Source of the DNA: Candidatus Melainabacteria bacterium
Lineage (GTDB): Bacteria > Cyanobacteriota > Vampirovibrionia > 2-02-FULL-35-15
DNA length: 64,000 nt
Reading direction: 5' to 3'
Assembly: GCA_023250195.1 (NCBI GenBank)
Contig: JAHFBF010000002.1
Span: forward strand, 186,001 to 250,000
The stretch's first letter is position 1. Every line of letters starts with the position of its first letter. The notes beneath the pieces were generated by a model. It had not been told where the DNA came from, did no database searches, and saw only the letters and a program-made list of their open reading frames with translations. The translations under genes were made by a program, and so were the position numbers. Below are positions 1,223 to 61,569 of this stretch, one piece after another.

Positions 1223-1250
1223 GGATTTGCCGGGTGAACCGGACAAATCC
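1223..1250 (-). repeat. leader hairpin family, copy 1
   Basis: Minus strand GGATTTG(T)CCGG-TTCAC-CCGGCAAATCC followed by GAGCAAGCGAAAGAAATTGACCGAAGGAAGCTC; 58 nt before the 1165 start. Confidence 0.75.
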
Positions 1251-1435
1251 TTATAACTGTTAGAGCGTTTCATCTCTCCTTCTTATTAATCCCTTAACAA
1301 TGTCATCGTCCAATATATATTTGAGTGGTTCTAATGCTTTTTTGCTTTGTTTTATATACATTCCCAAAAATTGTTAAAAAGTGGTATATATAAAATAAAA
1401 TAGACTTTAAGGATGAGAAATTAGGGGTAGCACTT

Positions 1436-2509
1436 ATGCCAAGCTCAGTATATTTATCAGGGCCATCAATTACACTAAATGATCCATTGTTGCCAATTGC
1501 GGCTGACTGGAAAACTTATGCTGCAAGTACATTTATAAGATCGGGCATTACTGTAGCTAATCCTCTGGATTTGGATTTAACTGGTTTTGTATCAAGTGTA
1601 GATGGAGCTACAAGTACAGTAAAACATTCGCTTTCACTGATAGACCGAGCAGATTCACTTTTAGCAAATCTTACACAGGTTACAGAATCTGCAACTATGG
1701 AAATGTTTTATGCTCATGGACAGGGAAAGCAGGTAGTGGTGGTAGGCAACGAACCATTTAGTCCATGGGTATTATTTCATTCTGAAGCACGTTTTAATAA
1801 ATTAAAAGAAGCTCTTTATTACCTAGTGAATCATCCTACAAATTTTGACACAATTGCCTGGTCTACACAGTTTGAAGCACAGTTAAAAAGACGCTCTGAA
1901 CAATATCCTCCGGAAGGAGAATTTGATTATGAATATTATGGCGGTGAAATCCCTATTTTAGTTTTAGCGCCGCACTCAACTGCATTTTTTACGGAAGGAA
2001 ACTGGCATGCTTCTGAATCTTATACGGGTTCGCTTGCAGTATTACTTCATAAATTAACCGGCTGTCATTCTCTTATTAGTTCTTACTGCGCAGTGGCAGA
2101 TCCTGTTTGTTATTTAACTTCTCCTTATGTAAATTTTTTAAAGCAATTAATCAAGAAAATAGATGTAAAACTTGTTTTAATTCTTCATGGCACTGAAGAC
2201 TGGAATAGTCCTCATGAGTTAGTTCTAAATAGTTGGGATAAAAGATCCTTAATAGATAGAACGGAATATCTGCATTTATTAACCAGTATGCTTAAGGTAA
2301 AGGATTTTAAAGAAATCGGCTATGATTCAAAAGATGTTGTTTCCAAAGAAATTAAAACAATGAATCATTTACTTTTTGAAGATTTTTCAATTCCCACGAT
2401 ACGACTTGAAATCCATAAGAGATATAGACAGCCTAAATTACATCCACATCAATATTCAAGTCTTCATACAGCTCTTGCACAGTTTTTAATGCTTGTAGGG
2501 GCGAGGTAA
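1436..2509 (+). CDS. nucleoside 2-deoxyribosyltransferase-like domain fused to N-formylglutamate amidohydrolase-like domain
   Basis: N-term VYLSGPS...IDRADSLLANLTQVTESATMEMFYAHGQGKQVVVVG; C-term ILVLAPHSTAFFTEGNWHASESYTGSLAVLLHKLTG...KLVLILHGTEDW. Confidence 0.65.
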   Translation: MPSSVYLSGPSITLNDPLLPIAADWKTYAASTFIRSGITVANPLDLDLTGFVSSVDGATSTVKHSLSLIDRADSLLANLTQVTESATMEMFYAHGQGKQVVVVGNEPFSPWVLFHSEARFNKLKEALYYLVNHPTNFDTIAWSTQFEAQLKRRSEQYPPEGEFDYEYYGGEIPILVLAPHSTAFFTEGNWHASESYTGSLAVLLHKLTGCHSLISSYCAVADPVCYLTSPYVNFLKQLIKKIDVKLVLILHGTEDWNSPHELVLNSWDKRSLIDRTEYLHLLTSMLKVKDFKEIGYDSKDVVSKEIKTMNHLLFEDFSIPTIRLEIHKRYRQPKLHPHQYSSLHTALAQFLMLVGAR

Positions 2510-3006
2510 TCAGAATAAAGCTCCCCCACGCTCTTCTTTAAAACCGGATGTATGAGTTCTTCATTTATATCCATAAGTGGAATTAAAACGAAATTTCTCT
2601 TTTCAATCATTAAATGTGGGATTGTAAGTTCTTTAGTATCGATAACCTCATTTCCATAAAATAAAATATCGAGATCTATAACTCTGGATCTTTTTTTGCC
2701 TCTATAGCCAATTTTTCTGCCAAGCTTTCTTTCTATACTTTTACAGGTTTTCAATAATTCAAGTGGAGTTAATGATGTAAGAAGCTTTATAGCGCCATTT
2801 AAAAAATATCCGCTTTTAATTCCTTCCTGAGGAGGGTTCTTAAACATCTTTGAAACTTTTAAAAGCTTTATTCCTTTTATATGGCTGAGTAGCTTAAGTG
2901 CATTTGAAATATTTTTTTCTCTATCACCTTTATTAGTGCCGATGCCAAGGTAAGTTGTTTTAAGTGTTAAGAGGTTAAGATTTTTAGACTTTCTTATTTT
3001 TGACAT
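2464..3006 (-). CDS. folK: 2-amino-4-hydroxy-6-hydroxymethyldihydropteridine diphosphokinase
   Basis: YLGIGTNKGDREKNI...LKTCKSIERKLGRKIGYRGKKRSRVIDLDILFYGNEVIDTKELTIPHLMIEKRNFVLIPL (HPPK motifs). Confidence 0.93.
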   Translation of the reverse strand: MSKIRKSKNLNLLTLKTTYLGIGTNKGDREKNISNALKLLSHIKGIKLLKVSKMFKNPPQEGIKSGYFLNGAIKLLTSLTPLELLKTCKSIERKLGRKIGYRGKKRSRVIDLDILFYGNEVIDTKELTIPHLMIEKRNFVLIPLMDINEELIHPVLKKSVGELYSDYLAPTSIKNCARAV

Positions 3007-3092
3007 ATTGGTTAAGAGATTTCTTCTTAACTATTTTAACCTGCTCTGTTCTCATTCCGGATTTGATGCAGAATTTAGATAGAGCTAGAAAT

Positions 3093-3172
3093 GTCATTCC
3101 GGGCTTGACCCGGAATCCAGATGACTTTAACTTAGCTTGCTTATCTGGATTCCCGCTTTCGCGGGAATGACA
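3093..3172. repeat. dispersed palindromic repeat (TCATTCCGGGCTTGACCCGGAATCCAG...CTGGATTCCCGCTTTCGCGGGAATGACA)
   Basis: Inverted repeat; related copies at 6056-6134, 15716-15790, 33040-33120 and half copy at 22195-22221. Confidence 0.85.
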
Positions 3173-3489
3173 TGCTCTCTGTCTTGAACACTTATCAAGA
3201 AATCCTCTTAATCTAAGTTATGAATTTTGATTAAGAAAATAAATCTAAATTTTTATGTAATAAATCTTTGAAAAAATAATTAAAACAAAACTTAAGAATT
3301 ATTTTAACTTTCAAATTGAATTTGGCCTTGACTTTAAAAGTTAAAATTTAGTAAAGTGTATGTATATAGCATTTTGGCTTGTTCTCAAAATTCAAGAATC
3401 ATATAAGAAAAATATATTGAAGAGTAATAGGAAAGCCAAAAGTTATAGATACAAGAGATAGTATCTAACTAAGGAGATAAATAAAAAAA

Positions 3490-4464
3490 ATGGCACTAAC
3501 AATAGTACAAATTGCTGAGAAATTATTACCCCAATTATTACCAACTTTAACCAAAGAAGCAGATATACTTACGCCATTACTTGCTACAGAACTGGCTAAA
3601 CCTGCAAACGCTGCACTTAAGGCGGATTATGATGCCGATCCTAGTGGTAGTAAGGAAGCTGACTTACTTGCTGCTGCAAAAACAAGATTTGGTGTTGTTA
3701 CTGATGACCATATTAATACCAAAATTAAGGCTCCAATAAATAGTAAACCTCATGAATATAATTTAGCTACAGGTGAAGTTGAAATAACACTTAATGGACT
3801 TACGAATGTAACGGCAGTAGGAGCACAACCCGGAGTAACAATAGTGTCACAAACTGGTGACAAGCTTAAAATTAAAATTGATCCAGCTACTTATACAGAT
3901 GGGACTAATCTTAAGTTTAAAGGTGAATATAAAGGGAAGTCAGTTGATTTAGATACGGTACAGTTTAAAGCAAAAGATATAGCAGCTCCAACAGGAACTC
4001 TACTTGCAGATGGAAGTGTTGTTATAACTTACCCAGCAGATCTTACAGATGCTCAAGTTACAGCTTTAGGTGCTGGAACTGTTTTTGCTGCTGAAAGAGT
4101 AGCTGGTAAACCCAGGGAAGTTAAGATTTCACTTAAATCAGGACAAACAATCAGTGCAGATACACAGTTACCAGAAATAGATCTTGCTGTTAATGGTAGA
4201 ACTATAAAACAAAAAGCAACTATTTCTAAATTTGCCGGAGCAGCAGAAGAAAGCAAAGGATTTTTGGGATGGTGTGGTAAACACTGGAAAGTATTAACCG
4301 GTGGACTTGCAGCTGTAATTGGATTAATTGCAACAGCAAAAAATGCTTCTGAAGATGGAATGTCATGGTTAGGACCTATCCTGGGTATTGTAGGAGGCGT
4401 TTTAGCTGGATGGGGTTTCTTTGGCGGTAAGGCTGATGCAACACCTGCTAAAACTACGCCATAA
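3490..4464 (+). CDS. hypothetical protein with C-terminal Gly-rich transmembrane region
   Basis: 324 aa ORF; C-term VLTGGLAAVIGLIATAKNASEDGMSWLGPILGIVGGVLAGWGFFGG. Confidence 0.7.
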   Translation: MALTIVQIAEKLLPQLLPTLTKEADILTPLLATELAKPANAALKADYDADPSGSKEADLLAAAKTRFGVVTDDHINTKIKAPINSKPHEYNLATGEVEITLNGLTNVTAVGAQPGVTIVSQTGDKLKIKIDPATYTDGTNLKFKGEYKGKSVDLDTVQFKAKDIAAPTGTLLADGSVVITYPADLTDAQVTALGAGTVFAAERVAGKPREVKISLKSGQTISADTQLPEIDLAVNGRTIKQKATISKFAGAAEESKGFLGWCGKHWKVLTGGLAAVIGLIATAKNASEDGMSWLGPILGIVGGVLAGWGFFGGKADATPAKTTP

Positions 4465-4574
4465 GCCTGAATAATTCCTCTTAGTTTTTATAAGGAGGTC
4501 AGTAAAAAATAAGTTCTAATTTTAATAATAAAATCATTTTATAAATTTTTATTTTACTTTTATATGACTTTTAT

Positions 4575-5948
4575 ATGACTACAGTTACACCAATTATTGC
4601 AAGATCATACGCTCGTCCTACCAGTACAAACACGCTTCAATCAACGCTTGCAGAGCATGGAGCTTATGCTGGTGGTTTTATTAAAAATTTAGCTTTAACA
4701 CTTACCGGTACTACTGTTGTTGGAATTATGGGTATTGGGAAATCTATTGCTCCTGATCATACTTTTTTTGACAGGTTCTCGCTGGTAGGTATAATTCTGG
4801 GTGCTATAACTGCTTTATTTGGTGCAATAGGTTTGTACAGAGGAAAGAAAAGTGCAGCAGCAGCTGCTGATGCTGCCAAGCCAACTCAAATTACGATAAC
4901 AGATCCACTTCCAGAGCAAATCTCCGATTATTTGTATAAAGTAAGTAGGGACACTCATGATAAATTCAAGGTTTCAAAGGATGTTGTAAGTGGTAATGCT
5001 GCCTCTACTATTACTAATCTTAGGGATAATTGTTGTCAGCTTCTGACAAGATGGACAGATAAGCAGTTTGGAGATGTTCTTCGAGCTAATGAAGGCAGGA
5101 ATGAATTCCTTTATGAAAATGGCAATGGTACAGGTAGTAATATCACTTCAACTGAGTTAAAAGATAGAATAGCAATTTTAATTGGTTATGTTGTTGGATC
5201 AAGAACAGGTACAATAGCTCCTGCTCTAGTTACTCCTCCAACTGCTTATCCTACTGGTACTGATGTTCCAAGTACGGCTATCCTACAGGGAAATCTTAAT
5301 CTTGAATGTATTGAATCAGGTAATAGTCGCTGGGAAAGATTGCTTCCTGACGAATTTACCCTTCTATATTCAGCAGCAAGGCACTATAAGATAAATCATA
5401 TGGATCATACTGACTCAATTACGACAGATGAAGTTAAAGTAAGAATATATCCAGCTACAACTGCAACAACAATAGATTTAACTACTACGACAACTGATCT
5501 TGCTACAGGGACAGCTCCTGCAGCTCTTAAAGAGAATGTTGAAAGTGTTGCGAAGTCAAGAAACTATTTAAGAATATTGCAAAAAGGAATAGAGTTTGTT
5601 CGTCAGGTTGAAAAGAAAAAGAAAGATGGTGAAAAAGTAAGTGATTCAGAGCAAAGAGATTCAGATATTTTAAGAAGTGCACTGGTAGCTGGCTTACAGC
5701 TCAAAGTAGCTAATCTGGATGACACGCTTGAACAACTAAGGAAAATTAAAGATGGGGACACTAACAATCCAGTAGCTGGTCTGGGAACCCAGGAAGGTTT
5801 GGATATAAAAACTACCAAGATGGATACTTATTGGGCTAGAGTTGAAGCTGCAGTCAGAGGAAATAATGCTTCCGGTATAACAGTAAGACCCACAGAACCA
5901 CTTAAGCTTCCATTGTTTAATCTGGCTGGTTTGATTACAGTATTATAG
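4575..5948 (+). CDS. hypothetical protein with N-terminal transmembrane segments
   Basis: 457 aa ORF; hydrophobic NLALTLTGTTVVGIMGIG and FSLVGIILGAITALFGAIGLY near N-terminus. Confidence 0.7.
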   Translation: MTTVTPIIARSYARPTSTNTLQSTLAEHGAYAGGFIKNLALTLTGTTVVGIMGIGKSIAPDHTFFDRFSLVGIILGAITALFGAIGLYRGKKSAAAAADAAKPTQITITDPLPEQISDYLYKVSRDTHDKFKVSKDVVSGNAASTITNLRDNCCQLLTRWTDKQFGDVLRANEGRNEFLYENGNGTGSNITSTELKDRIAILIGYVVGSRTGTIAPALVTPPTAYPTGTDVPSTAILQGNLNLECIESGNSRWERLLPDEFTLLYSAARHYKINHMDHTDSITTDEVKVRIYPATTATTIDLTTTTTDLATGTAPAALKENVESVAKSRNYLRILQKGIEFVRQVEKKKKDGEKVSDSEQRDSDILRSALVAGLQLKVANLDDTLEQLRKIKDGDTNNPVAGLGTQEGLDIKTTKMDTYWARVEAAVRGNNASGITVRPTEPLKLPLFNLAGLITVL

Positions 5949-5984
5949 AGATTGCCATGCCTCATGGAATTTACCCTGAGCGTA

Positions 5985-6192
5985 GGAGCTCATCTCAAAA
6001 CTCTTATAGGGTAAGTTTGCATTTTGTCGCATAAACATTGATTGAAAAACAAGATGTCATTCCGGGCTTGACCCGGAATCCAGGCGGTTACACAATAGCG
6101 TACTTATCTGGATTCCCATTTTCATGGGAATGACAATTGACCTTATGTTGAAAAAATCAGTTAAGCTCATAGTAGGACTTTTGAGATAGCCT
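5985..6192. repeat. composite MITE-like repeat with GGAGCTCATCTCAAAA...TTTTGAGATAGCC ends and nested palindrome
   Basis: Second copy with same end organisation at 15644-15848; inner palindrome at 6056-6134. Confidence 0.7.
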
Positions 6193-6233
6193 TCAGCGAA
6201 TGGGTTTAGCTCCCATGACGTGAGTAGTTATTA

Positions 6234-6596
6234 TTACTTTGTGATTTTTTTTGAATACTCTGCTACTACTGAAGTGCTGATTCCACCCCTTGCAGTAAAG
6301 TCTCCTGTAACAGTTATTTTTTTTGGCTTTAAAATTTTCACCAGATCATCAAGAATTTTATTTACAACAGACTCATAAAAAATACCTTCATTTCTATATT
6401 TCAAGAGATAATATTTAAATGATTTCAATTCAATACAGAACTTATCAGGTATATATTCAATAATTATTGTTCCAAAGTCCGGTAAGCCTGTTTTAGGACA
6501 TATGGAAGTAAACTCAGGACAATTGATAGTAATGGTATAGTTCCGTTTTGGATAGCGGTTAGGGAAAATGTCGAGTTTCAAATTATTCTTTTTCAT
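6234..6596 (-). CDS. queF: NADPH-dependent 7-cyano-7-deazaguanine reductase
   Basis: EFTSICPKTGLPDFGTIIIEYIPDKFCIELKSFKYYLLKYRNEGIFYESVVNKILDDLV...TGDFTARGGI (QueF signature). Confidence 0.95.
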   Translation of the reverse strand: MKKNNLKLDIFPNRYPKRNYTITINCPEFTSICPKTGLPDFGTIIIEYIPDKFCIELKSFKYYLLKYRNEGIFYESVVNKILDDLVKILKPKKITVTGDFTARGGISTSVVAEYSKKITK

Positions 6597-6599
6597 CAG

Positions 6600-6765
6600 G
6601 TTTTTCTACCTACCGCCTTCCTCGCTCATTCTTCGCTTGTCAGGCTTTGCAAAGTGCATCTGAGCTGCTTCTTATTAATGTTATTTAGATTTTACCGAAT
6701 AAATCGGATAAAATCTTAGAGTATGAATAGCTTACTTTGAAATGTTACTTAGCTAGGCAGTAATG
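6600..6765 (-). promoter_or_regulatory. structured leader element upstream of queF
   Basis: Minus strand shares about 160 nt organisation with 9615-9790: TTACTGCCTRGCTAA...GTAAC, then AGATTTTA(T)CCGA-TTTAT-TCGGTAAAATCT (6687-6716), then CACTTTGCAAAGCCTGACAAGCGAAGAATGAGCGAGGAAGGCGGTAGGTAGAAA. Confidence 0.65.
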
Positions 6766-6864
6766 GGTTTATTATTATAATCAAAAGCTACATACAAATA
6801 AAGTGTTGTACAAGATGGTTTAAGTGGGTAAAACTATATTAAGTGCATTCAGTAAGTTAATAAA

Positions 6865-6956
6865 TGAAGGTTTGCCAAAAAGCGCAAACCTTCATGCCGT
6901 AGAAGGTTAGCCGATAAATAGCGACATAATCTGCGTTAGCAGTTATGTCGCGTTAT
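6865..6956 (+). promoter_or_regulatory. structured leader element upstream of HTH gene
   Basis: TGAAGGTTTGC-caaaaagc-GCAAACCTTCA hairpin (6865-6894), then GCGACATAA-TCTGCGTTAGCAG-TTATGTCGC hairpin (6921-6951), about 10 nt before ATG 6966. Confidence 0.65.
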
Positions 6957-6965
6957 AATAGATCA

Positions 6966-7634: not shown

Positions 7635-7640
7635 TCCCAC

Positions 7641-8849: not shown

Positions 8850-8854
8850 TTTCT

Positions 8855-8882
8855 GTAGAAGCGTAGCATGCTACGCTTCTAC
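8855..8882. repeat. 28-bp perfect palindrome
   Basis: GTAGAAGCGTAGCA|TGCTACGCTTCTAC between convergent aroC and ubiE. Confidence 0.85.
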
Positions 8883-9607: not shown

Positions 9608-9614
9608 ATTTTGT

Positions 9615-9790
9615 AGAAGTTATGCAGTTACTGCCTGGCTAATGTAACACATCCAAGCAAACAACTTATAAGGTAAGATTTTATACGATTTACTCGGTAA
9701 AATCTGTACAATGTTATAAAAGGCAGACTAGGAGCACTTTGCAAAGCCCGACAAGCGAAGAATGAGCAAGGAGGGCGGTAGATAGAAACA
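9615..9790 (+). promoter_or_regulatory. structured leader element upstream of TPR gene
   Basis: GTTACTGCCTGGCTAATGTAAC, then AGATTTTA(T)ACGATTTACTCGGTAAAATCT (9676-9705), then CACTTTGCAAAGCCCGACAAGCGAAGAATGAGCAAGGAGGGCGGTAGATAGAAA; homologous to the queF leader. Confidence 0.65.
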
Positions 9791-11559: not shown

Positions 11560-11565
11560 TATTTA

Positions 11566-13419: not shown

Positions 13420-13581
13420 GATTTCTAATGTATAAAATGTTTTAATATTATGAAAGCGCGATTAATGCGACTCTTTAGCTATCTTATGGTATTTCACCGA
13501 CACTATCAAGACCCGTCTCTTCTTTTTTTAATAGCGCAAAACAAGTTTGCGCTTCCTTCTGTTGCTCCTTCACACAGGATC

Positions 13582-13609
13582 GGCTTTGCCGGATGAACCG
13601 GACAAAGCC
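13582..13609 (-). repeat. leader hairpin family, copy upstream of dnaG
   Basis: Minus strand GGCTTTG(T)CCGG-TTCAT-CCGGCAAAGCC, followed by a second hairpin AGCGCAAA-CTTG-TTTTGCGCT. Confidence 0.75.
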
Positions 13610-13628
13610 TTAAAGTCATGAATTCGTG

Positions 13629-14672
13629 TTAAGGGATTTCTCCTATACTGCTAAGCCCTGTTTCTTCTTTTAGTGATAGCATTATATTCATATTTTGGAC
13701 TGCCTGACCGGATGCACCTTTAACCATATTGTCGATTGCACTAATTAAGATTAACCTGTTAGTTCTTTCGTCTTTTATTGGAGTTATATGACAAAAGTTT
13801 GTATATTTTACATTCTTTGTATTAGCATAGGTGGTTCCAGGTAAGACCTTAACGAATTTTTCATTTTTATAATAATCTGTGTAAAGTTTGTAAATTTCTT
13901 CCTGGGTTAAACTTTTTTTCCACTTACCAGCTAAATTAACATAAATAGTGCTTAGTATCCCCCTGCTTATTGGCAATAAATGTGGAGAAAAAATTACATT
14001 AAATTTTTCAGCAAAACCTGAAAGAGCACGTAACTCATTTTCAATTTCAGGGATGTGTCTGTGTTTTCCGGCAAGATTATACGGCACAAATGATTCATTT
14101 ATTTCACAGAATTGTAATTCCTGCTTTAGCTGTTTTCCCGCGCCGCTAACACCTGATTTTGAATCAATGATTATTGAATTTAAATCAATAATTTTATTTT
14201 TAATAGCAGGTGCAAGTGCAAGAATTGCAGATGTAGGATAACAGCCTGGATTTGCAATCACTCTTGAAGTTTTTATTTCTGCTCTGCGAATTTCGGGAAG
14301 CCCATATGCAATTTTTAAATCCTGTTTTTTGCCTAATGGGATATTTTTCTTTAATCTGAAATCGGTACTTAAATCTATAACTTTTATATTATTATTTTTG
14401 CTTAAAAGTTTTGGCACAAACTCACAGGCAAAACCATTTGGAGTAGCACAAAAAACAATGTCACAGCTTGCTGAGATATCTTTCAAATCAACAGGTTTAA
14501 GTCTCTCCTCAAGTCTTCCTAAGAAGTTTGGGTAAACCTCATAGAAATATTTTCCTGCATGCTGTTCGGAAGATAAATAATTAATTTCTACCTCTGGATG
14601 ATCTAAAAGAAGTTTGGTAAGGATTACACCTGTATAACCTGTTGCACCTAATACTCCAACTCTTGCTTTCAT
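13629..14672 (-). CDS. argC: N-acetyl-gamma-glutamyl-phosphate reductase
   Basis: RVGVLGATGYTGVILTKLLLDHPEVEI...VIANPGCYPTSAILALAP...SGVSGAGK. Confidence 0.97.
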   Translation of the reverse strand: MKARVGVLGATGYTGVILTKLLLDHPEVEINYLSSEQHAGKYFYEVYPNFLGRLEERLKPVDLKDISASCDIVFCATPNGFACEFVPKLLSKNNNIKVIDLSTDFRLKKNIPLGKKQDLKIAYGLPEIRRAEIKTSRVIANPGCYPTSAILALAPAIKNKIIDLNSIIIDSKSGVSGAGKQLKQELQFCEINESFVPYNLAGKHRHIPEIENELRALSGFAEKFNVIFSPHLLPISRGILSTIYVNLAGKWKKSLTQEEIYKLYTDYYKNEKFVKVLPGTTYANTKNVKYTNFCHITPIKDERTNRLILISAIDNMVKGASGQAVQNMNIMLSLKEETGLSSIGEIP

Positions 14673-14736
14673 GAGAAATATTTTAGCAAATAAAGAAGAC
14701 AGGGAGTGTTAAGCAAAACTGGGTAGAACAAGTTAC

Positions 14737-14816
14737 GTCGTTCCGAGGAGCAAAGCGACGTGGGAATCTCCTAACGTTATGAGATTGCCACGCCTTCTTC
14801 AAAGGCTCGCAATGAC
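14737..14816. repeat. REP-like palindromic repeat
   Basis: GTCGTTCCGAGGAGCAAAGCGACGTGGGAATCTC...GAGATTGCCACGCC...GGCTCGCAATGACG; same family as 861-955. Confidence 0.8.
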
Positions 14817-14856
14817 GTTACCCGGAATATTGAAGACATAAGTTAAAATAAAAGCC

Positions 14857-15630
14857 ATGACTGAACACAATAACTGCTATCTAAATGAAATATATTCAGC
14901 AATTCAGGGTGAAGGTCCCTTTGTCGGGATTCGTCAGATATTTGTAAGGTTCAGCGCTTGTGATTTACGCTGCACATGGTGTGATACGCCGGATAGTCTG
15001 GTAAGAACTGAGTTGTGTTCAATGGAAGATGGTGCCGGTACAAGGAAATTTCACAAAGTCAAAAATCCTCTAAATGATAATACCCTTTTATCACATATTA
15101 AACTATTACTACCAGAATTACATCACAGTATTTCCTTAACAGGGGGAGAGCCTCTTTTGCAATGTGATTTTTTAAATAATTTTCTTCCTCTTTTAAAAAA
15201 AAGAATTCGACTTCCTGTTTATCTGGAGACAGGCGGTCATAGACCGAAAGAATTAAGCAAAATAGTTAATCTTTTGGATTTTATTTCAATGGATTTTAAG
15301 CTGCCTTCTTCAGCGAATACCGGAATCCTGTGGGATAAACATAAAGAGTTTTTAGAAATATCTTTAAAAGCAAAAAATCTTCAAAGCGTCTGGGTGAAAA
15401 TTGTGATTACAGAAGATACTCTATCGGATGAGTTGATTCATTCGATTAATATAATAAAATCTGTTTATCCGAAAAATAATTTGGAAATATTCCTTCAACC
15501 AGTCACTGAAATAAATAATACAGGTCCACCGGACGAATTAAAACTATTAAATATTCAAAGAGATCTCTTGAAAATCTATCCAAAAATTCGGGTAACTCCA
15601 CAGGTGCATAAACTTATTGGGCAGAGATAG
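14857..15630 (+). CDS. queE: 7-carboxy-7-deazaguanine synthase (radical SAM)
   Basis: YLNEIYSAIQGEGPFVGIRQIFVRFSACDLRCTWCDTPDS...ISLTGGEPLLQ. Confidence 0.95.
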   Translation: MTEHNNCYLNEIYSAIQGEGPFVGIRQIFVRFSACDLRCTWCDTPDSLVRTELCSMEDGAGTRKFHKVKNPLNDNTLLSHIKLLLPELHHSISLTGGEPLLQCDFLNNFLPLLKKRIRLPVYLETGGHRPKELSKIVNLLDFISMDFKLPSSANTGILWDKHKEFLEISLKAKNLQSVWVKIVITEDTLSDELIHSINIIKSVYPKNNLEIFLQPVTEINNTGPPDELKLLNIQRDLLKIYPKIRVTPQVHKLIGQR

Positions 15631-15643
15631 CTTTCACGTCATT

Positions 15644-15848
15644 GGAGCTCATCTCAAAACTCTGTCTATGGGATTAGCTATTTTTCTGACAAAATAGAAA
15701 GAGTGAAAGTAACTTGTCATTCCCGCGAAAGCGGGAATCCAGTATCGGTACCAGTCTTGTCTGGATTCCCTGGTCGAGCCAGGGAATGACATTGTTGACT
15801 TTATGCTGAAAAATGTTGCATTTCCATAGTGGTAGTTTTGAGATAGCC
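15644..15848. repeat. composite MITE-like repeat, second copy
   Basis: GGAGCTCATCTCAAAAC ... TTTTGAGATAGCC ends with inner palindrome 15716-15790; compare 5985-6192. Confidence 0.7.
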
Positions 15849-15850
15849 TC

Positions 15851-15966
15851 TTGCGAGGAGACTCGAAGAGTCGACCCGCTCCGACTTGTCTGAGACGAGG
15901 CGAGCGCGGCAATCTGATAACGTTAAGTGATTGCCACGTCGCTGCTTTGCAGCTTCTCGCAATGAC
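15851..15966. repeat. REP-like palindromic repeat abutting the composite repeat
   Basis: TTGCGAGGAGACTCGAAG...GGCAATCTGATAACG...TGATTGCCACGTCGCTGC...TTCTCGCAATGAC. Confidence 0.75.
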
Positions 15967-15982
15967 ACGGGGTCGTTATACT

Positions 15983-16915
15983 TTAATTCCTTGGAGTAAC
16001 CTTAATTTCAAAATCAGACTTTACCGCCATTATTCCAAAATATAAAGGTGGTTCTTCAATAGACACTTTAATTTTTACTATTTGATCATTTTTGTAATCC
16101 TGCCCAAAAAGAAAACTTGCCTGTTCACTTGTAAAGGGGTCAGTCAGTGCATTTGTAGTAAAGTTACCACTTATAGGCAGGGTTCTGCTTGCTGATTTTA
16201 ACTGTGAAAAATGATCTAGAAATAAGTTGTTTGATGGACTTCCTGCACTGCTTGATGAAGAGGATCCAAGAGATGAGGAGCCAGGAGTAGTACTACTGTT
16301 TGTTTCAGGTAATGAAGCAGTAAAGTTTTGACCTAAGGATTTAATAAATTCATCATCTTCTGGAAGTGTAGATTTGGATATTTCTAAAACAGGAGGCAGG
16401 AATGGCCAGTTTTTTTCTCTATCTTCCGTATAGACTTTACTTTGACTCTTGAATTTTATGGATTTTAAAATCAAATATTCAGAGGCTTTCCGGATTTTTC
16501 TTGAATATACTTCCTCAAAAGTTTGCTTGGGCTTTGCATAATAATATAAAATGTAGTCATATCCGATAACATCACCAGTTGATTCATAAAATACCGGTTT
16601 TGTAAAATAAATAAAGGGTGAGCTGTCTTTTACATCATCTGGAAATGGAATACCAAATGATGTTCCTCTGCCTATATTTATTCTGCTTTTATTTGCATCT
16701 ATTAAATCATCGGATAATATCCTAACCGCTAATCTGGCTTTCACCTGTGATAAGCCTCTTGAATAACTCTGATAAAAGAATTTCCAGCCATTGTTTGAAT
16801 ATGCGTATAAAAGTCCCATGACTATACCAAGAACAGCTAGAACAGCCATAGTTTCTATTAAGCTGTAACCATTTGGTTTTCTTTTATAGCTCAAGGTAAG
16901 AAATTTCTTTAGCAT
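15983..16915 (-). CDS. prepilin-type N-terminal methylation domain protein (pseudopilin-like)
   Basis: N-term RKPNGYSLIETMAVLAVLGIVMGLLYAYS (type IV prepilin-like); Ser/Gly-rich linker SSTTPGSSSLGSSSSSSAGS. Confidence 0.8.
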   Translation of the reverse strand: MLKKFLTLSYKRKPNGYSLIETMAVLAVLGIVMGLLYAYSNNGWKFFYQSYSRGLSQVKARLAVRILSDDLIDANKSRINIGRGTSFGIPFPDDVKDSSPFIYFTKPVFYESTGDVIGYDYILYYYAKPKQTFEEVYSRKIRKASEYLILKSIKFKSQSKVYTEDREKNWPFLPPVLEISKSTLPEDDEFIKSLGQNFTASLPETNSSTTPGSSSLGSSSSSSAGSPSNNLFLDHFSQLKSASRTLPISGNFTTNALTDPFTSEQASFLFGQDYKNDQIVKIKVSIEEPPLYFGIMAVKSDFEIKVTPRN

Positions 16916-23381: not shown

Positions 23382-23409
23382 GTAGGGGCGTTTTGCAAAA
23401 CGCCCCTAC
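23382..23409. repeat. 28-bp perfect palindrome
   Basis: GTAGGGGCGTTTTG|CAAAACGCCCCTAC. Confidence 0.9.
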
Positions 23410-23427
23410 AATCTCTTGTAACTATTC

Positions 23428-23457
23428 GGATTTTATCGAGTGAATCGGATAAAATCT
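23428..23457 (-). repeat. leader hairpin family, copy divergent from mlaE
   Basis: Minus strand AGATTTTA(T)CCGA-TTCAC-TCGATAAAATCC. Confidence 0.7.
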
Positions 23458-29878: not shown

Positions 29879-29920
29879 CCTTTATATGAGAATGAAGTTT
29901 CAATCACTTTCACGATTAAA

Positions 29921-29948
29921 GGTTCTGTCCAATTCAATTGGCAGAACC
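29921..29948 (+). repeat. leader hairpin family, copy upstream of membrane protein
   Basis: GGTTCTG(T)CCAAT-TCA-ATTGGCAGAACC, followed by GGCTTCAG-CTTGT-CTGAAGCC just before ATG 30003. Confidence 0.75.
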
Positions 29949-30002
29949 GATCCATCTTATAGCTTGACTTATGGAGGCTTCAGCTTGTCTGAAGCCATAT
30001 AA

Positions 30003-31190
30003 ATGAATAATTTCTTTCAGACGTTAGGATGGGCTTTTTATTTAGCTTGTTCATGGACATGGTGTATTGGAATGTTTTTGCCTGTAATTTTGATCCGTGA
30101 TTATGGTGTATGGGGATGGGTAATATTTGCTGTTCCTAATGTTTTAGGTGCTACAGCAATGGCATATGTTCTGGCAAAACCTGAAATGAGTAAGGAGATG
30201 GTTGAAAGGCATAAAATTGCCTGCAGTGTATTTTCAATAATTACAATTCTGTTTCAAATTTATTTCATTGGGTGGATTGGCACAATTGTTCCAAATATTT
30301 TTACACTAGCTGTATGTGTTGTGCTTGTTTTAATATATGTGTCAGGCTCACGGATTGATGATAATCAAAGGTTTAGTGCTTTTATTGTATGGATATTGTC
30401 TTTGATTTGCCTGATTTTAACTTTTCATTTTGTGCCTGTGGAAAAAATCGATCTTTTTAAGAGTGGAAATTTAATTCATAATACTAATGCTCTTTTACAT
30501 CTAACACCGGTATTTATTTTTGGATTTTTACTATGTCCTTATCTTGACTTAACTTTTCATAAGGTAAGACAATCCAATACCCTGTTAAATTCAAAAATTG
30601 CTTTTACGGTTGGATTCTGTTTTATGTTTCTTCTAATGATAGTTTTTACTTTTTTTTATGCAAGACCTGTGGCAAGCATAATTGAAGGTGTTTCTTGTCT
30701 CCTTAAAGATCAAAGTCAGTTGCCGTTAATATATATTTATGTTCTAACTTTTCATATGTTAATTCAGGCAGGGCTTACGGTGTTTTTTCATCTTAGATTG
30801 CTTCTTCCAATAATTAGGAAAAACAATAGAAATAGTTTTTTGTTGGTGATATTAGGTGTTGTAATTTATCTGCTGCCTGTAATATTTAATGCAAATCATC
30901 TGCCATTAGGAATGACAATAAATGAATTTATTTATCGAGTATTTATGGCTTTTTATAGTTTGATTGCACCATCGTATGTGTTTTTATTTGTGATTCCAAA
31001 GAATAAGAAAAATATTTCTTTAAATAACTACAATTTACTTGTCTGGATTACAGCTGTATTATTTGCGCTGCCATTTTATGCTATTGCTTTTTTAGGAGTG
31101 AAATGGAATCTGGAGATTTGTGTACTTGCAGGTTTAGCGATTGTTTTATTCTCTAGAGTATTAGTTAAGCCTGAAGGTGTTAACTTATAA
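30003..31190 (+). CDS. polytopic membrane protein
   Basis: 395 aa with many hydrophobic segments; no recognised family. Confidence 0.75.
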   Translation: MNNFFQTLGWAFYLACSWTWCIGMFLPVILIRDYGVWGWVIFAVPNVLGATAMAYVLAKPEMSKEMVERHKIACSVFSIITILFQIYFIGWIGTIVPNIFTLAVCVVLVLIYVSGSRIDDNQRFSAFIVWILSLICLILTFHFVPVEKIDLFKSGNLIHNTNALLHLTPVFIFGFLLCPYLDLTFHKVRQSNTLLNSKIAFTVGFCFMFLLMIVFTFFYARPVASIIEGVSCLLKDQSQLPLIYIYVLTFHMLIQAGLTVFFHLRLLLPIIRKNNRNSFLLVILGVVIYLLPVIFNANHLPLGMTINEFIYRVFMAFYSLIAPSYVFLFVIPKNKKNISLNNYNLLVWITAVLFALPFYAIAFLGVKWNLEICVLAGLAIVLFSRVLVKPEGVNL

Positions 31191-32994: not shown

Positions 32995-33039
32995 TTATAT
33001 ATACTATCAGAATTTATGTAGACAGTTGCTACGGATGAT

Positions 33040-33120
33040 GTCATTCCCGCGAAAGCGGGAATCCAGAAATACGTTAATTTTGTTTTTATCGTCTGGATTT
33101 CCAGTTAAGCTGGGAATGAC
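33040..33120. repeat. dispersed palindromic repeat (TCATTCCCGCGAAAGCGGGAATCCAG...)
   Basis: Same family as 3093-3172. Confidence 0.85.
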
Positions 33121-33177
33121 ATTTCTCTAGATTTTATTTGTAATTTCATTATCCTTTTCGGATATAATTAACCTGTT

Positions 33178-38745: not shown

Positions 38746-38841
38746 TAAAGAGACAGGATTCGAACTTTTTTACCTGCTTTGACCGTTGGATAAGTTTGTT
38801 ATTAAACACTAAAACATTGCTCTAGCAATTGGTAATTAAAG

Positions 38842-38869
38842 GATTTGTCCCATTTATTGGGCAAATCCG
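38842..38869 (+). repeat. leader hairpin family, orphan copy
   Basis: GGATTTG(T)CCCA-TTTAT-TGGGCAAATCC; no + strand gene directly downstream. Confidence 0.75.
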
Positions 38870-38963
38870 ATTAAGTGTTAGGTTTGATTGAGAAAAAGCG
38901 AAATAATTTTTTAAAGTTCAAAATTTAATAAATAATAGTTGAAAAATTATGGAGCGTTATAAA

Positions 38964-48393: not shown

Positions 48394-48395
48394 AA

Positions 48396-49671: not shown

Positions 49672-49775
49672 AGGTTTTGTCCGACTTGTTCGGCAAAACC
49701 TGATAAATGTATGGGGAGGCTTACCGGAAGCAGTATGCAAAGCCGGCGAAGCGAATTATGAGCGAGCCGGTGGTG
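49672..49775 (+). promoter_or_regulatory. structured leader element overlapping start of the PdtaS-like gene
   Basis: AGGTTTTG(T)CCGA-CTTGT-TCGGCAAAACCT (49672-49701), then TATGCAAAGCCGGCGAAGCGAATTATGAGCGAGCCGGTGG, matching the queF/TPR leader second domain. Confidence 0.65.
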
Positions 49776-51813: not shown

Positions 51814-51814
51814 A

Positions 51815-54004: not shown

Positions 54005-54027
54005 ATTTATTCTGCAGAGTGTTTCTA

Positions 54028-54969: not shown

Positions 54970-55027
54970 AAATTGAGAATTAAATATGAATTATCAATTT
55001 TCAATTCTCAATTGTCAATTGTATTTT

Positions 55028-55099
55028 GCGGAAGTAGTTCAGTGGTAGAATGTCTCCTTGCCAAGGAGAAGGTCGCGGGTTCGAGCCCCGTCTTCCGCT
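55028..55099 (+). tRNA. tRNA-Gly(GCC)
   Basis: GCGGAAGTAGTTCAGTGGTAGAATGTCTCCTTGCCAAGGAGAAGGTCGCGGGTTCGAGCCCCGTCTTCCGCT. Confidence 0.97.
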
Positions 55100-55305
55100 T
55101 TTTATAAGCGCTCCGTAATTTATTTCGGCTTATGCCTACACAAATTACTTCGCTTTTTGCGGTCAAGATTTATGACGCTTCGGGTTTTCGCATGTGGAAA
55201 ACCCTCCGCTTGAAGCCTTGCTTGACAATCTCTAAAGCAGTATGTCCTAAGCGTAATTTGGAAGCGGAGCGGACATGGATCGTGGGTATATGGTGAGCAT
55301 AAAAA

Positions 55306-56532: not shown

Positions 56533-56536
56533 CATC

Positions 56537-56833
56537 CTATGCGATGGCTATCTCATCTGCTGGCAGGGCTTGATCTTCTGTATTAGAATCAGCCTTTTTT
56601 CTTGCTTCTCTTAGAGAATTAATTGCTGCTCTTTGGAGTTCCAAGGCTCTGGTTATCATTGATCTTTCTAAGGACTCTGTTGTTGTTTTTGTTGTTGGGT
56701 TTCCGTCGGCATCTTTTTCTCCATCTGAATCTGACCATGGGTTAATAGCTTTAATACTCTTAATACTTGGAGCTTGCCTATTTACAATACTCCCGTTTCT
56801 AAATCCACCAGTTTGTGCATTGTACATATACAT
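56537..56833 (-). CDS. hypothetical protein
   Basis: 98 aa ORF, MYMYNAQTGGFRNGSIVNRQAPSIKSIKAINPWSDSDGEK... Confidence 0.5.
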   Translation of the reverse strand: MYMYNAQTGGFRNGSIVNRQAPSIKSIKAINPWSDSDGEKDADGNPTTKTTTESLERSMITRALELQRAAINSLREARKKADSNTEDQALPADEIAIA

Positions 56834-56996
56834 GACTTCCCCCTATTTGATTTCCCTTTTCCTTGCAACATCTAAAATCCTAAATTTTTAAGGTTAGGGT
56901 TTTATAAAGATAAAATGTATGTCAAATTTATTTTCTTTTTAAATCTTTACTAAGTTAAATTCAGGTTAATTTTTTTTTAAGGACTTATGCTATTTC

Positions 56997-58517
56997 CTAC
57001 TTTATTCTGTAAGAAACTATCTGTTTGGTGTAAATAATAGTTTTACTCAATGTGTCTGTGCGTTGAAGTATTGGGTTGCTAGTTACACTAAGTATGAATA
57101 TTGCAAGGACAGAAATTAAAACAGCTGTATTTAATTCCATAGAAGGTCCAAGAGATTCTTTGTTTGAATCCATGTTTAGAACAATTTGTGAAGGCTTGTC
57201 TACAACCATAAGCTTCACAATATATGAATAATAAAAAACTGAGAGAATAGTAGTTATTAAAGCAATGGAACCTAAAAGTATTCCTATATTGCCGGTACTA
57301 AAAGCAGAATTAAATAAGATAAATTTTGCAATAAATCCGGCAGGTGGGATTGGTAGACCAGCAAGATTAAACAAACAAATACAAAAAGCAAATGCTAAAA
57401 GAGGTCTTTTCTTTGCTAGTCCGCTGTAATCAGGGATTGCATCGGAGTTAGCCTCATTTCCAAATGCAATTATGCATAAGAATGCGCCAAGATTCATGAT
57501 GGAATAAATAATAAGGTAAAAAACACTTGCTGAAACTGTTTCATGGGTGTTAAGTGCAATGCCAATTAAGATATATCCAGCTTGTGCAATTGAAGAATAT
57601 GCCATTAGCCTTTTAATTGAAGCTTTGTTTACTACTTCGCCAAGGGCAACAAAGTTTCCGATTAACATTGATAGTATTGAAATTATGATTATAATTGGCT
57701 GCCATACTGTAAATGAAAAACCAAATACTATTAGCAGCAGTCTAATGGTAATTGCAAAACCTCCTGCTTTTGAGGCAACGGATAAAAAAGCTGTAGCTGG
57801 TGTTGGCGCACCTTCATAAACATCCGGTGACCACATATGAAATGGAGCACTTGCTAATTTAAAAGCCAGCCCCCCAATAATTAAAATTAATGCAATTACA
57901 ATGATGTTTTGATTTAAACTGCCTGAGCTGTTTAACTGGATTAATTTTTGCCTGATGTCATCAAGCTGTGTTGAGCCTGATAAGCCATATAAAATTGATA
58001 GGCCAAATAAAAATATTGCAGAAGCACCGGCACTGTTAAGTAAGTATTTTAGTGAAGCTTCATTACTTCTAAGATCATATTTTGCGTAGCCAGCCAGCAT
58101 AATGGAACCTAAACTCAATGTTTCAAGTGCTACAAAGATTGTTACTAAATCATTTGCACTTACTAGAAACATAATTCCAATTACTGATGAGAGGATTAAA
58201 ATCATAAATTCACCTTTATGGATAAACCCTTCAGTGTATTTATTTGCACCAAGCGTAATTAAAATAGCAACAATTAAGGTAAGAAGTCTGAATACGTAAC
58301 TTAAATCATCTGATATAAACATACCGTTTAAAATCTGAATTGGCTTAATTATAGGGTTATTAAGTAGGTAAACAGTTCCTGCAAGCATTAAAATTGTGGT
58401 TGTAAACCAGATAAAATTTTTGAACTTTGTAGTGCTGAGTAAGATGGCTATTAAAAGTGCAATTAAAAGAAGTATCTCTGGACAAATTATTGAAATAATA
58501 TCTTTTATTAACATCAT
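56997..58517 (-). CDS. nuoN: NADH-quinone oxidoreductase subunit N
   Basis: Polytopic; FVALETLSLGSIMLAGYAKYDLRSNEASLKYLLNSAGASAIFLFGLSILYGLSGS...FKLASAPFHMWSPDVYEGAPTPATAFLSVASKAGGFA. Confidence 0.97.
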   Translation of the reverse strand: MMLIKDIISIICPEILLLIALLIAILLSTTKFKNFIWFTTTILMLAGTVYLLNNPIIKPIQILNGMFISDDLSYVFRLLTLIVAILITLGANKYTEGFIHKGEFMILILSSVIGIMFLVSANDLVTIFVALETLSLGSIMLAGYAKYDLRSNEASLKYLLNSAGASAIFLFGLSILYGLSGSTQLDDIRQKLIQLNSSGSLNQNIIVIALILIIGGLAFKLASAPFHMWSPDVYEGAPTPATAFLSVASKAGGFAITIRLLLIVFGFSFTVWQPIIIIISILSMLIGNFVALGEVVNKASIKRLMAYSSIAQAGYILIGIALNTHETVSASVFYLIIYSIMNLGAFLCIIAFGNEANSDAIPDYSGLAKKRPLLAFAFCICLFNLAGLPIPPAGFIAKFILFNSAFSTGNIGILLGSIALITTILSVFYYSYIVKLMVVDKPSQIVLNMDSNKESLGPSMELNTAVLISVLAIFILSVTSNPILQRTDTLSKTIIYTKQIVSYRIK

Positions 58518-58593
58518 AATATAGAAAATTATAGAGCTTTTTTGAATTATTGTTTATTAATATACCTCAATGCAATAAGTTATATATAAGCGA

Positions 58594-58691
58594 AGGTTTG
58601 TTGTAAGTACAAACCTGAGTGTCGAAAGGGGTTGGAGAGAAATAGTGAAGTCTTTTATTAAATTTGGGCGTTAGCAGTTATTTCGCGTTAT
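58594..58691 (+). promoter_or_regulatory. structured leader element upstream of the 58745 gene
   Basis: AGGTTTGT-tgtaagt-ACAAACCT-GAGTGTCGAAAGGGGTTGGAGAGAAATAGTGAAG...GGGCGTTAGCAGTTATTTCGCGTTAT. Confidence 0.65.
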
Positions 58692-58744
58692 GAAAATAAA
58701 AAGTTATAATTAGTGTATTCTAATTGAATAAAGTAGGGAATAGT

Positions 58745-59674
58745 ATGTATATGGTTAAACAAAACTTTTATATTTTAAGTATTGTTGTTTTATTTTTCCT
58801 AATAGCTTTAAATTCTTGGGCAAGAGACAGTGCATCTAAAGTTTTACCAGAGACTAAAAATACAATGTCACATGATAAAAAATCTCTCACCGATTCTGCT
58901 GATGAAAAAAGTGACTTAGAGGACAATGAAAGTGAAGAAGAAGAGGCAGTTGAACCTCCTGATGAGAATTTTAAATTACTTGCAATATATTTGGTTGGAA
59001 ACAAGCCTCGTGCTTTAATAAAAAATCTTGATAAACCTGAGGAGCCTGCAAGGGAATATCAAGTTGGTGATTATGTAGATGATTCACAGATTTTCTCTGT
59101 TTCAAAAATATTACTTAACCCTACTCTAAGAATAGAATTAGTTGATTCAAATGGCTTGAGTTATATAGTAAAACCAAAAAATACTGATAATATGAATAAT
59201 CCTGCGCCTTTAAAATCTTCACCCAGTTATTCTGGTGGATATAAAACTAAAATAAAAAAAGCTGCAACGTCTACTGCAAGATCTGCCGGTGAAACAACTT
59301 CATCTGGCGCTCCATCAGCACAGGTAAAGTCATCAGAAAAGAAAGAAGATGCTGCTTCGCTTGAATCAGCCATAAAAAATGATGCTGCTCCAGCCGCAAG
59401 CACAATAACTACACCTCCTCCTTCAGCACCTGCACCAACACAACTCCCTCCTGGAACAACAACGCCTCCTCCTGGGCTAACACAGCCTTCTTCGGCACCA
59501 GCACCATCTGAGCAGATACAAAATACAAATTCACCAGCACCAAGTCAAGCAGGCGGAGCAGCTCAACCTCAAACAAATGTACCTCCTATGGGAACAACTG
59601 ATTATGCAATGTCTGGTAGCGGTGCCTCAGATTCTCTAAATACAAGCAGACCATCAAACCCTTTTGGAGAATAG
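58745..59674 (+). CDS. secreted/anchored protein with PilP/GspC-like region and Pro/Ala-rich tail
   Basis: N-term hydrophobic FYILSIVVLFFLIALNSWA; FKLLAIYLVGNKPRALIKNLDKPEEPAREYQVGDYVDDSQIFSVSKILLNPTLRIELVDSNGLSYIV. Confidence 0.6.
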   Translation: MYMVKQNFYILSIVVLFFLIALNSWARDSASKVLPETKNTMSHDKKSLTDSADEKSDLEDNESEEEEAVEPPDENFKLLAIYLVGNKPRALIKNLDKPEEPAREYQVGDYVDDSQIFSVSKILLNPTLRIELVDSNGLSYIVKPKNTDNMNNPAPLKSSPSYSGGYKTKIKKAATSTARSAGETTSSGAPSAQVKSSEKKEDAASLESAIKNDAAPAASTITTPPPSAPAPTQLPPGTTTPPPGLTQPSSAPAPSEQIQNTNSPAPSQAGGAAQPQTNVPPMGTTDYAMSGSGASDSLNTSRPSNPFGE

Positions 59675-59696
59675 AGAACCAAGTTAAAAGTTTTAA

Positions 59697-59727
59697 CCTT
59701 TGAGCTTTAAGTTTTAAGCTTCAAAGG
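59697..59727. terminator. candidate terminator-like hairpin between convergent genes
   Basis: CCTTTGAGCTTTAAGTTTTAAGCTTCAAAGG. Confidence 0.5.
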
Positions 59728-61030
59728 CTTCAATTTCATCAATAGTTTTAGGTGTTCCGTCTGTAAGAACTTTATTTCCGGTTTTTGTTATGAGGACATC
59801 ATCTTCAATTCTCACTCCTATTCCGCGGAATCTTTTTGGTATATCTTGAGTGTCTGGAATATAAATACCGGGTTCAACGGTCATAACCATGCCGGGAATT
59901 AATTTTATTGATTTCCCCTTTGCATCCAGATATGGTCCGGCATCGTGTACATCCAACCCAAGCCAGTGACTAAGTTTGTGCATAAAAAATTTCTTATACT
60001 CACCTTTTTTAATTATTTTTTCTGTAGAACCTTTTAAAAGTCCCAGATCTTTTAATCCTTCTACCAGAATGTAAACAGCTTTATTATAGGAGTTAATAAA
60101 TCTTCGTCCTGGTTTTATCTGTTCAATAGATTTGAGCTGTGCTTCCAGAACAATTTTATAGATTGCTTTTTGGGCAGGATTGAATCTTTTGTTTGCAGGA
60201 AATGTTCTGGTTAGATCAGAAGCATAATAATTGTATTCACAGCCAGCGTCAATTAAAATTAAATCGTTTTTCTGAATTATTTTATTATTTATTGTGTAAT
60301 GTAAGATTGTTGAATTTTTGCCTGAACCTACAATCGATGGATAGGCAGGACCGCTTGCACCAAGTGTTCTAAACCTGCACTCAATTATTGCTTCTATCTC
60401 GTATTCGTACATTTTTGGTTTTACGCAGGTCATTGCAAGTATATGTGCATCTTTTGCAATGCTTGCTGCAGTTTCTAAACATTCAATTTCATAATTATCT
60501 TTTATTAATCTCATTCTGTGAATTAGATCCCTTGGGTCTGAAATATTTTTAGGTGATTTTGTGCTTGTACGATTGCTTCTTTTTAACTCGTCAATGATGC
60601 TTGTGATTTTCAGTTCAAGATTTTTATTTTGCCCAAGAGGGAAGTAAACATGTTCTGTGTCGGATAAAAAATACTTTAATTTACTTTCAAATTCGGAAAA
60701 TAAATATGACTCATCGGCTCTGTAGATTTGCTTTGCTCCCTCTTTGCCGGCTCTTTTTCCTGTCCAGATTTCTTTTTCTTTATCCTTTGGTTCTACAAAT
60801 AAAATGTAAGTAAAATGTTTCCTCTCTTTTTTTAAAACACAAATTGAATTTGGCTCTTCAAAACCGGTTAGATAATAAAAATTACTTTCAGGTCTGAATT
60901 TGTACTCTACATCGTTTGATCGTATTGAAAGAGGTTTATTTGGAATAATGACAATTGAATTTTCTGGCAACTCGTTTATGAGTCTTTTTTTTCGCTTTTC
61001 AAAAATCGAATGGTTAAAATTATTTTTCAC
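59714..61030 (-). CDS. pepP: Xaa-Pro aminopeptidase (M24B)
   Basis: SNFYYLTGFEEPNSICVLKKE...LILIDAGCEYNYYASDLTRTFPANKRF...HKLSHWLGLDVHDAG...MVMTVEPGIYIPD. Confidence 0.95.
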   Translation of the reverse strand: MKNNFNHSIFEKRKKRLINELPENSIVIIPNKPLSIRSNDVEYKFRPESNFYYLTGFEEPNSICVLKKERKHFTYILFVEPKDKEKEIWTGKRAGKEGAKQIYRADESYLFSEFESKLKYFLSDTEHVYFPLGQNKNLELKITSIIDELKRSNRTSTKSPKNISDPRDLIHRMRLIKDNYEIECLETAASIAKDAHILAMTCVKPKMYEYEIEAIIECRFRTLGASGPAYPSIVGSGKNSTILHYTINNKIIQKNDLILIDAGCEYNYYASDLTRTFPANKRFNPAQKAIYKIVLEAQLKSIEQIKPGRRFINSYNKAVYILVEGLKDLGLLKGSTEKIIKKGEYKKFFMHKLSHWLGLDVHDAGPYLDAKGKSIKLIPGMVMTVEPGIYIPDTQDIPKRFRGIGVRIEDDVLITKTGNKVLTDGTPKTIDEIEAFEA

Positions 61031-61474
61031 AGTTTATCTCATGATGGATTTGAAAGTAGAGACGTTCCATTTGTGTTAGCAGTTAAGTTCCTTATATTTG
61101 ACAGATTACAGAGTTAGGATAATAGTTTAATTGTTAAGAGTATATTAATAAGCTTTAATCAATTTATAGGTATAATAAATATCTAAAGCATATAAAAAGA
61201 TTGAAATTCTTATATAACAAGCATTCTAATTGGTACTTTTTCTAAGTTAAATGTAGGAGCTTTAACATTTAACCTTACTGGAGTCCCGAATAAAATGTTA
61301 TTTTTAGCTTAAAAATGTAAATAATAAAATTGATATGGGGTTTTATGAATCATTTTAAAAACTTCTACTTAGCCAGAAAAGTTATTTATATTTTTGTAGA
61401 AGAAGCATTTGTCTGATTTACTGGAAATTTATCTAACCTGGTAAGTCTAATCAAATGAAAGAAATGCAAGTGGA

Positions 61475-61569
61475 GGTTTTTCTGTAAACGAAAAATCAGA
61501 GTGTCGAAAGGAGTCGGACGCTAAGAGCGGAGTGTTTTCTTGAAAACACAGAGCGATATATAAAAAATG
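61475..61569 (+). promoter_or_regulatory. structured leader element upstream of pilB/gspE-like gene
   Basis: GGTTTTTC-tgtaaac-GAAAAATC-AGAGTGTCGAAAGGAGTCGGACGC...GTGTTTTCTTGAAAACAC. Confidence 0.6.

Follow-up and report, generated by a model that had tools for sequence, protein, structure and literature searches.

Small mobile elements sharing one bulged-stem hairpin module in a single family of Candidatus Melainabacteria

The window analyzed here, a stretch of 64,000 nucleotides from a 2.21-Mb Candidatus Melainabacteria genome (C1:186001-250000 of genome G000), carries dispersed hairpins which belong to small mobile elements sharing one bulged-stem module and found only in one taxonomic family. 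In this module a stem of 7-8 bp is separated from one of 4 bp by an unpaired T on the 5' arm, and a five-base TTYAY loop closes it. The initial annotation of the window had described these hairpins as one dispersed family of structured 5' leaders. That observation is real and was confirmed, while its interpretation was partly supported; two related repeat groups, here called A and B (the latter with its relative C), had been merged in it. In the combined reading, which we consider probable, the two are related mobile families, B being a miniature inverted-repeat transposon (MITE) and A a mobile structured 5'-untranslated region (5'-UTR) module that affects translation or the stability of the mRNA. 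Dozens of unrelated genes appear to receive from one small mobile family a 5' leader that comes ready-made and selected for its structure. Given that young, old and empty sites can be compared in congeneric genomes, it can be tested directly how a selfish repeat turns into an element of gene control. In addition, the long and variable duplications flanking family A pose the question of how such an element moves.

The hairpin module and its taxonomic range

All eight long-tip hairpins lie on the strands and at the positions first reported, the sole shift being one base (38841-38868 instead of a start at 38842). The extra T on the 5' arm is present in 8/8 rows of their alignment, and the compensatory stem change that had been proposed was found as double-sided changes at 6 of the 12 pairs (14 cells). 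Pairing is nearly complete, with the 12-pair stem formed in 96.7% of cells, and not perfect, since the copies at 9676 and 23428 each have one tip-stem mismatch. The covariation score of this alignment was reached by 0 of 500 shuffles and fell from 0.47 to 0.14 or less when the partner was slid by 1-3 columns. It had been argued that selection acts on the fold and not on primary sequence; the covariation check, strong both in the eight copies and in the 81-copy set described below, bears this out.

A covariance model was built from the eight long-tip copies and then used for genome searches. In G000, 106 matches passed a threshold of E<=1 and 96 the stricter one of E<=0.01, so that the family is indeed dispersed and the earlier count of 13 or more loci was far too low. 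Each of the 11 genomes from this taxonomic family carried between 16 and 144 copies, G004 and G007 having near-identical ones, and 20 genomes of other families gave 0 matches. In a wider sample of the class, matches occurred in 11 of 289 genomes, all of one family, and in 0 of the 278 others. A DnaG protein search of GTDB contigs for relatives returned distant phyla only. With gene calls from a simple codon-usage caller made for this analysis, 5 of 92 elements were inside called genes, and elements were sense to the next gene in 67 cases vs. 19 antisense. Copies are therefore not equally frequent in antisense. The sense bias noted at first holds overall and is mainly that of family A (18:1 in tandem gaps), families B and C showing none that is clear (9:6).

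Family B as a miniature transposon and the related family C

Family B elements are about 163 nt long, start with GTTACTGCCTAGCTA... and end with ...CGGTAGGYARAAAC, and the bulged hairpin module (AGATTTTATCCGATTYAYTCGGTAAAATCT) sits in their middle. Their ends read GTTxCTxCCTAxC and form inverted repeats (GTTACTGCCTAGC / GTTTCTACCTACC, 10/13 alike), the paired ends being about 160 nt apart. An 8-bp target duplication was found as a full 8/8 match in 12 of 43 candidate copies and as a 7/8 match in a further 7, the 8-mers lying exactly outside GTTACT...AAAC; with mispaired flanks as control, 8/8 matches were 0 and 7/8 matches 0.8%. Because of these defined ends and the flanking 8-bp duplication, family B is a MITE. 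It must be noted that the claim of one class of leader does not survive this result, given also that many A copies are lineage-specific insertions.

The window contains two B elements and a truncated one. The first (6602-6764, minus strand; hairpin 1 at 6687-6716) has its inverted ends at 6752-6764 and 6602-6614 and lies upstream of queF (6234-6596, minus strand). The second (9627-9789, plus strand; hairpin 1 at 9676-9705) ends in GTTACTGCCTGGC / GTTTCTATCTACC, and the orthologous gap in the congener G002 measures 61 nt vs. 322 nt here. In the truncated copy (23382-23457, minus strand), which retains a B-type hairpin 1 (23428-23457), a GTAG-type REP (repetitive extragenic palindrome) hairpin (23382-23409) stands in place of the right half. 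Family C, with an AGGTTTTG... hairpin related to that of B and a second hairpin GCACTTTGCAAAGC, is by resemblance a probable miniature transposon as well; its copy in the window (49672-49757, plus strand) comprises hairpin 1 (49672-49701) and the second hairpin and lies 5' of a PdtaS-like kinase gene. Copies of B and C had no clear orientation bias (9:6 sense in tandem gaps, 25/35 overall). Apparent housekeeping genes lie downstream of them too and, therefore, no conclusion on pathway was drawn.

Family B would be moved in trans by a putative DDE-type transposase. When the draft genomes G000 and G004 were searched for the pattern of the ends, pairs of MITE size and a single 2.1-kb pair came up, and no transposase was recognised by eye among the called genes; since none with matching ends was found, mobilisation of B is deduced from its ends. 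In the 2.1-kb pair (G000:C1:115178-117300; L296:3679-5801), two left-type B ends face each other around a gene for a 658-codon membrane protein, possibly a captured gene or a chance arrangement. As a separate observation, the second-hairpin stem of family B (e.g., in L024, L049, L058 and L142) holds ATGAGCGAGGAGGGCGG, which at several loci opens an MSEEGG... frame into the downstream gene.

Other dispersed repeats were seen in the window. The short-tip hairpins at 6865, 44985, 58594 and 61475, which had been counted as members, are real and belong to a separate repeat family with other flanks, no bulge and the segments GAGTGTCGAAAGG and GCGTTAGCAGTTATTTCGCG. This family has its own copies in relatives, several of them 91-95% alike in the congener G001. 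One copy spans 6865-6960 (plus strand); another spans 58563-58698 (plus strand) and corresponds to an empty site of 6 nt in G002. Short G002 gaps were likewise found at 9676, 58594 and 61475. Further repeats at 14702-14839, 15636-15975 and 33023-33177 are of the GAGATTGCCACG..CTCGCAATGAC and CATTCCCGCGAAAGCGGGAATCC types, and the block 15626-15983 is absent from G002, which has 7 nt there.

Family A: structure, insertion and placement before genes

Family A elements of about 100 nt consist roughly of ACGYTTTNACAATTTAAAGG, hairpin 1 (with stems of the GGATTTG/GGCTTTG/GCATTTG type), GATC, a linker, hairpin 2 (GGAAGC-stem-CTTGT-stem-GC) and TATAAAA. An 81-copy alignment was assembled with a filter for a CTTGT-like loop, a handful of its rows being B-type copies. 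Standard pairs were formed per position in 78-81 of 81 rows in hairpin 1 (about 99%), with at least two pair types nearly everywhere, and in 72-78 of 81 rows in hairpin 2 (about 92%), with several pair types. In this filtered set, the bulged T was present in 77/81 rows, the CTTGT loop in 75/81 and a linker of 28-29 nt in 70/81. Single-strand RNA folding of three A copies of the window gave both hairpins in two of them; the copy at 1223 gave hairpin 1 only, its hairpin 2 being decayed. No inverted ends were seen in family A, nor any fixed 8-bp duplication by inspection.

The comparison with G002, which like G001 is a congener of G000, is about 75% identical in coding DNA and has synteny over most of the window, revealed clean empty orthologous sites for the A copies at 13582 and 29921, and these are lineage-specific insertions. 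The copy between asd and dnaG (13526-13628, minus strand; hairpin 1 at 13582-13609, hairpin 2 with the CTTGT loop) is flanked by two versions of a sequence of about 42 nt from the 3' end of asd: the upstream one (13629-13670, minus strand; KEETGLSSIGEIP stop) is the present end of the gene, and the downstream one lies at 13484-13525 (minus strand; KEETGLDSVGEIP stop). In G002 the alignments overlap by 42 nt, that is, the sequence is found there in a single copy, to which the downstream duplicate is nearer than the upstream one. The second copy lies between two genes (29899-30001, plus strand, left end approximate; hairpin 1 at 29921-29948, hairpin 2 with the CTTGT loop) with an ATG at 30003; the two genes are 10 nt apart in G002 and 123 nt apart in the window. 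An A-type hairpin 1 (38841-38868) followed by a long variant second hairpin (38820-38963, plus strand, left end approximate) abuts the 3' end of a tRNA-Met gene in antisense, with an orthologous gap of 69 nt in G002 vs. 222 nt here. The remaining window copy (1164-1262, minus strand) has hairpin 1 at 1223-1250, the linker, the decayed hairpin 2 and an A-rich end, followed by the ATG of a short ORF (968-1165, minus strand).

Direct repeats of 14-77 nt abut the ends of about 11 A copies. They include repeats of 41 nt (C6:507407), 36 nt (C1:7918), 22 nt (C2:267533, a tRNA 3' end), 18 nt exact (L089), 77 nt (L095), about 23 nt (L203) and 24 nt (L213), and most score beyond the best of 1508 mispaired controls. 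The downstream repeat copy starts where the A-rich end of the element stops, and the upstream copy runs to 2-56 nt before hairpin 1; the repeats often comprise the last codons and the stop codon of the upstream gene. The upstream copy being a living gene end, its changes should be mostly synonymous, and the downstream copy would be expected to drift freely. At four loci with duplicated gene ends (C1:199578 and C1:7918 of G000; L095 and L228 of G002), 17 synonymous vs. 4 non-synonymous codon differences were counted, 20% of random single changes being synonymous. This excess would be accounted for if alleles of other strains had replaced the upstream gene, and also if some molecules use the downstream copy. 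Two arrangements of family A were also recorded: a tandem array in which three or more copies follow one another with a period of about 117 nt up to a tRNA gene (G001:C13:40671-40940, L229-L231), and a 68-codon gene between two copies, the 3' end of the gene being repeated after the second copy in cassette-like manner (G000:C6:507051-507442).

With respect to placement, the end of hairpin 2 was 0-15 nt before an ATG opening an ORF of at least 40 codons in 40 of 78 A copies from several genomes, with a mode of 6-10 nt; for random intergenic points the share was 6.8%. Distances between hairpin 1 and the start codon form a cluster at 50-56 nt. In tandem gaps the sense bias was 18:1 (P=8e-5), and 30/34 copies were sense overall; family A is also inserted at gene ends. 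Genes behind A copies include rplN, rplA, fusA, gmk, plsX, murJ, murG, fabF, accB and an Rne/Rng ribonuclease gene. The latter (L068:1603-3033) best fits the cyanobacterial RNase E model, below the cut-off of that model, which hints at kinship with Cyanobacteriota. Few Shine-Dalgarno motifs occur upstream of the genes of the window, and the bases immediately before the ATG are enriched in A.

Some A copies are shared among the three congeneric genomes. They are orthologous by both flanks at murJ, fabF, C6:507051/L208 and a tRNA-Gln gene (L236/L211), and matched by one flank at C4:7646/L216/L235, C1:7918/L228 and C6:143777/L253. At these loci the linkers are barely recognisable, and hairpins 1 and 2 are still paired with different bases, e.g., CCGG/CCGG vs. 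CTAA/TTAG. Selection on the fold after insertion predicts such a pattern. We infer that family A, in sense position, is transcribed as the end of the 5'-UTR. There its two stable hairpins, together with an open A-rich spacer, would govern how translation starts and how stable the mRNA is, in a genome hardly using Shine-Dalgarno sites. The element would spread to gene starts and gene ends, duplicating at times 14-77 nt of its target, and its fold, seen to be kept by compensatory change, would be maintained by selection, the retained folds presumably reflecting a host role.

Alternative explanations and known systems

The main rival to the combined reading holds that all these elements are selfish DNA. 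Family A would be, like B, non-autonomous and without a host role, covariation would arise because a transposase needs a folded single strand, and the position near start codons would result from insertion preference and tolerance. The empty sites and target duplications agree with this, as do the 16-144 copies among close relatives and the near-identical copies of G004 and G007; moreover, transposases of the IS200/IS605 type also recognise a bulged T in a hairpin stem. However, the stems of orthologous copies have stayed paired around a linker that can scarcely be aligned, unlike those expected of a dead insertion, and the strong sense bias and exact ATG spacing of A contrast with B. We consider this explanation possible, if rather unlikely. 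It is doubtful that family A is instead a fixed cis-regulatory leader, such as the target of one global RNA-binding protein (bulged IRE hairpins in animals being an analogue), which seems mobile owing to inter-strain recombination of genes together with their leaders. Position, sense bias, fixed linker length, invariant loops and the many housekeeping genes downstream would all suit such a leader, and the 17 synonymous vs. 4 non-synonymous differences look as if one copy came from another strain. Nevertheless, most A loci are unshared among the three congeners (G001 and G002 have about 20 A copies each, of which 3-4 per genome have an orthologue in G000), the empty sites are clean, and some duplications are exact, such as that of 18 nt in L089.

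A REP-like nature had been kept open in the initial annotation, rightly so. The hairpins are dispersed extragenic palindromes with a bulge, and G000 has two divergent Y1_Tnp genes. That the elements are REP sequences served by these RAYT (Y1) transposases is nonetheless the least probable of the explanations weighed. Hairpin 1 lacks a GTAG foot, the feet reading TAAAGG, TATAGG, GTAAG or AGAAAGG; the elements measure 100-163 nt and have target duplications; and true GTAG-type REP hairpins occur apart from them, also in or beside Y1 genes. Five of the 11 genomes, with as many as 144 copies, gave no Y1_Tnp match at E<=0.001, in a search by which divergent genes could be missed. A RAYT/REP identity was dropped on the foot sequence and the apparently patchy occurrence of RAYT. 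The two RAYT-like genes of G000 are located at L174:2526-3050 (minus strand) and at about L173:2734-2904 (plus strand), with GTAGGGGC...GCCCCTAC-type REP hairpins in or beside them. Hardly more probable is the reading of family A as a SINE-like element whose copies arise through target-primed reverse transcription. The constant A-rich 3' end, the variable 5' end and the variable target duplications of 14-77 nt resemble such copying, but no RVT_1 reverse transcriptase was found in 11/11 genomes of the family, while 8/20 others have one; therefore the likeness has no enzyme behind it, and this route was dropped. No matching case was found in the literature on SINE-like bacterial elements or dispersed structured leaders. 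Integron attC sites, considered for the selection on a folded strand and for the element-gene-element case at G000:C6:507051-507442, were set aside by position and dispersal beside housekeeping genes only. A riboswitch or other curated RNA family was rejected, as the window copies had no Rfam match at gathering or relaxed thresholds, in agreement with the first impression that no described riboswitch class is present.

Several points weigh against the combined reading itself. About half of the A copies are away from start codons, and several abut tRNA genes or lie antisense. The duplications of 14-77 nt occur in a minority of A copies, and no transposase for B was found in the stretches around matching ends in the draft genomes G000 and G004. 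The A copies at orthologous loci may stem from separate insertions into a favoured position and not from one old insertion, and the action of family A as RNA is deduced from sequence patterns. More tentatively, A may be a mobile, RNA-shaped 5'-UTR whose copying takes it, mostly in sense orientation, to start codons and gene ends, leaves long variable duplications, involves no known reverse transcriptase and is followed by its retention as the leader of housekeeping genes; that the duplicated gene ends stay protein-conserved could even point to removal of the element from some transcripts or genomes.

The bacterial MITEs NEMIS/Correia, ERIC and RUP are shorter than 200 bp, non-coding and dispersed, their transcripts fold, and NEMIS and ERIC affect mRNA processing or stability (PMC2229807). 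They are like family B in having inverted ends and a target duplication, and differ from the present elements, which have other end sequences and an 8-bp duplication, lack TA ends and contain in addition a bulged-hairpin module that evolves by compensatory change. REP/RAYT systems, which are GTAG-tagged (PMC3733652), share with these hairpins the extragenic palindromes and the high copy number, whereas here there is no GTAG tag and the elements are longer composites with target duplications. Riboswitches and ribosomal-protein leaders are likewise structured RNAs directly 5' of genes with covarying stems; in our case there is no single common downstream pathway and no Rfam match, and insertions can be demonstrated. 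Finally, the CIR repeats of Caulobacter and Brucella consist, as family A does, of two stem-loop arms and a linker (PMC2229807). CIR exposes a GANTC loop motif (PMC2229807), while family A has TTYAY and CTTGT loops, a GATC after hairpin 1 and its adjacency to start codons.

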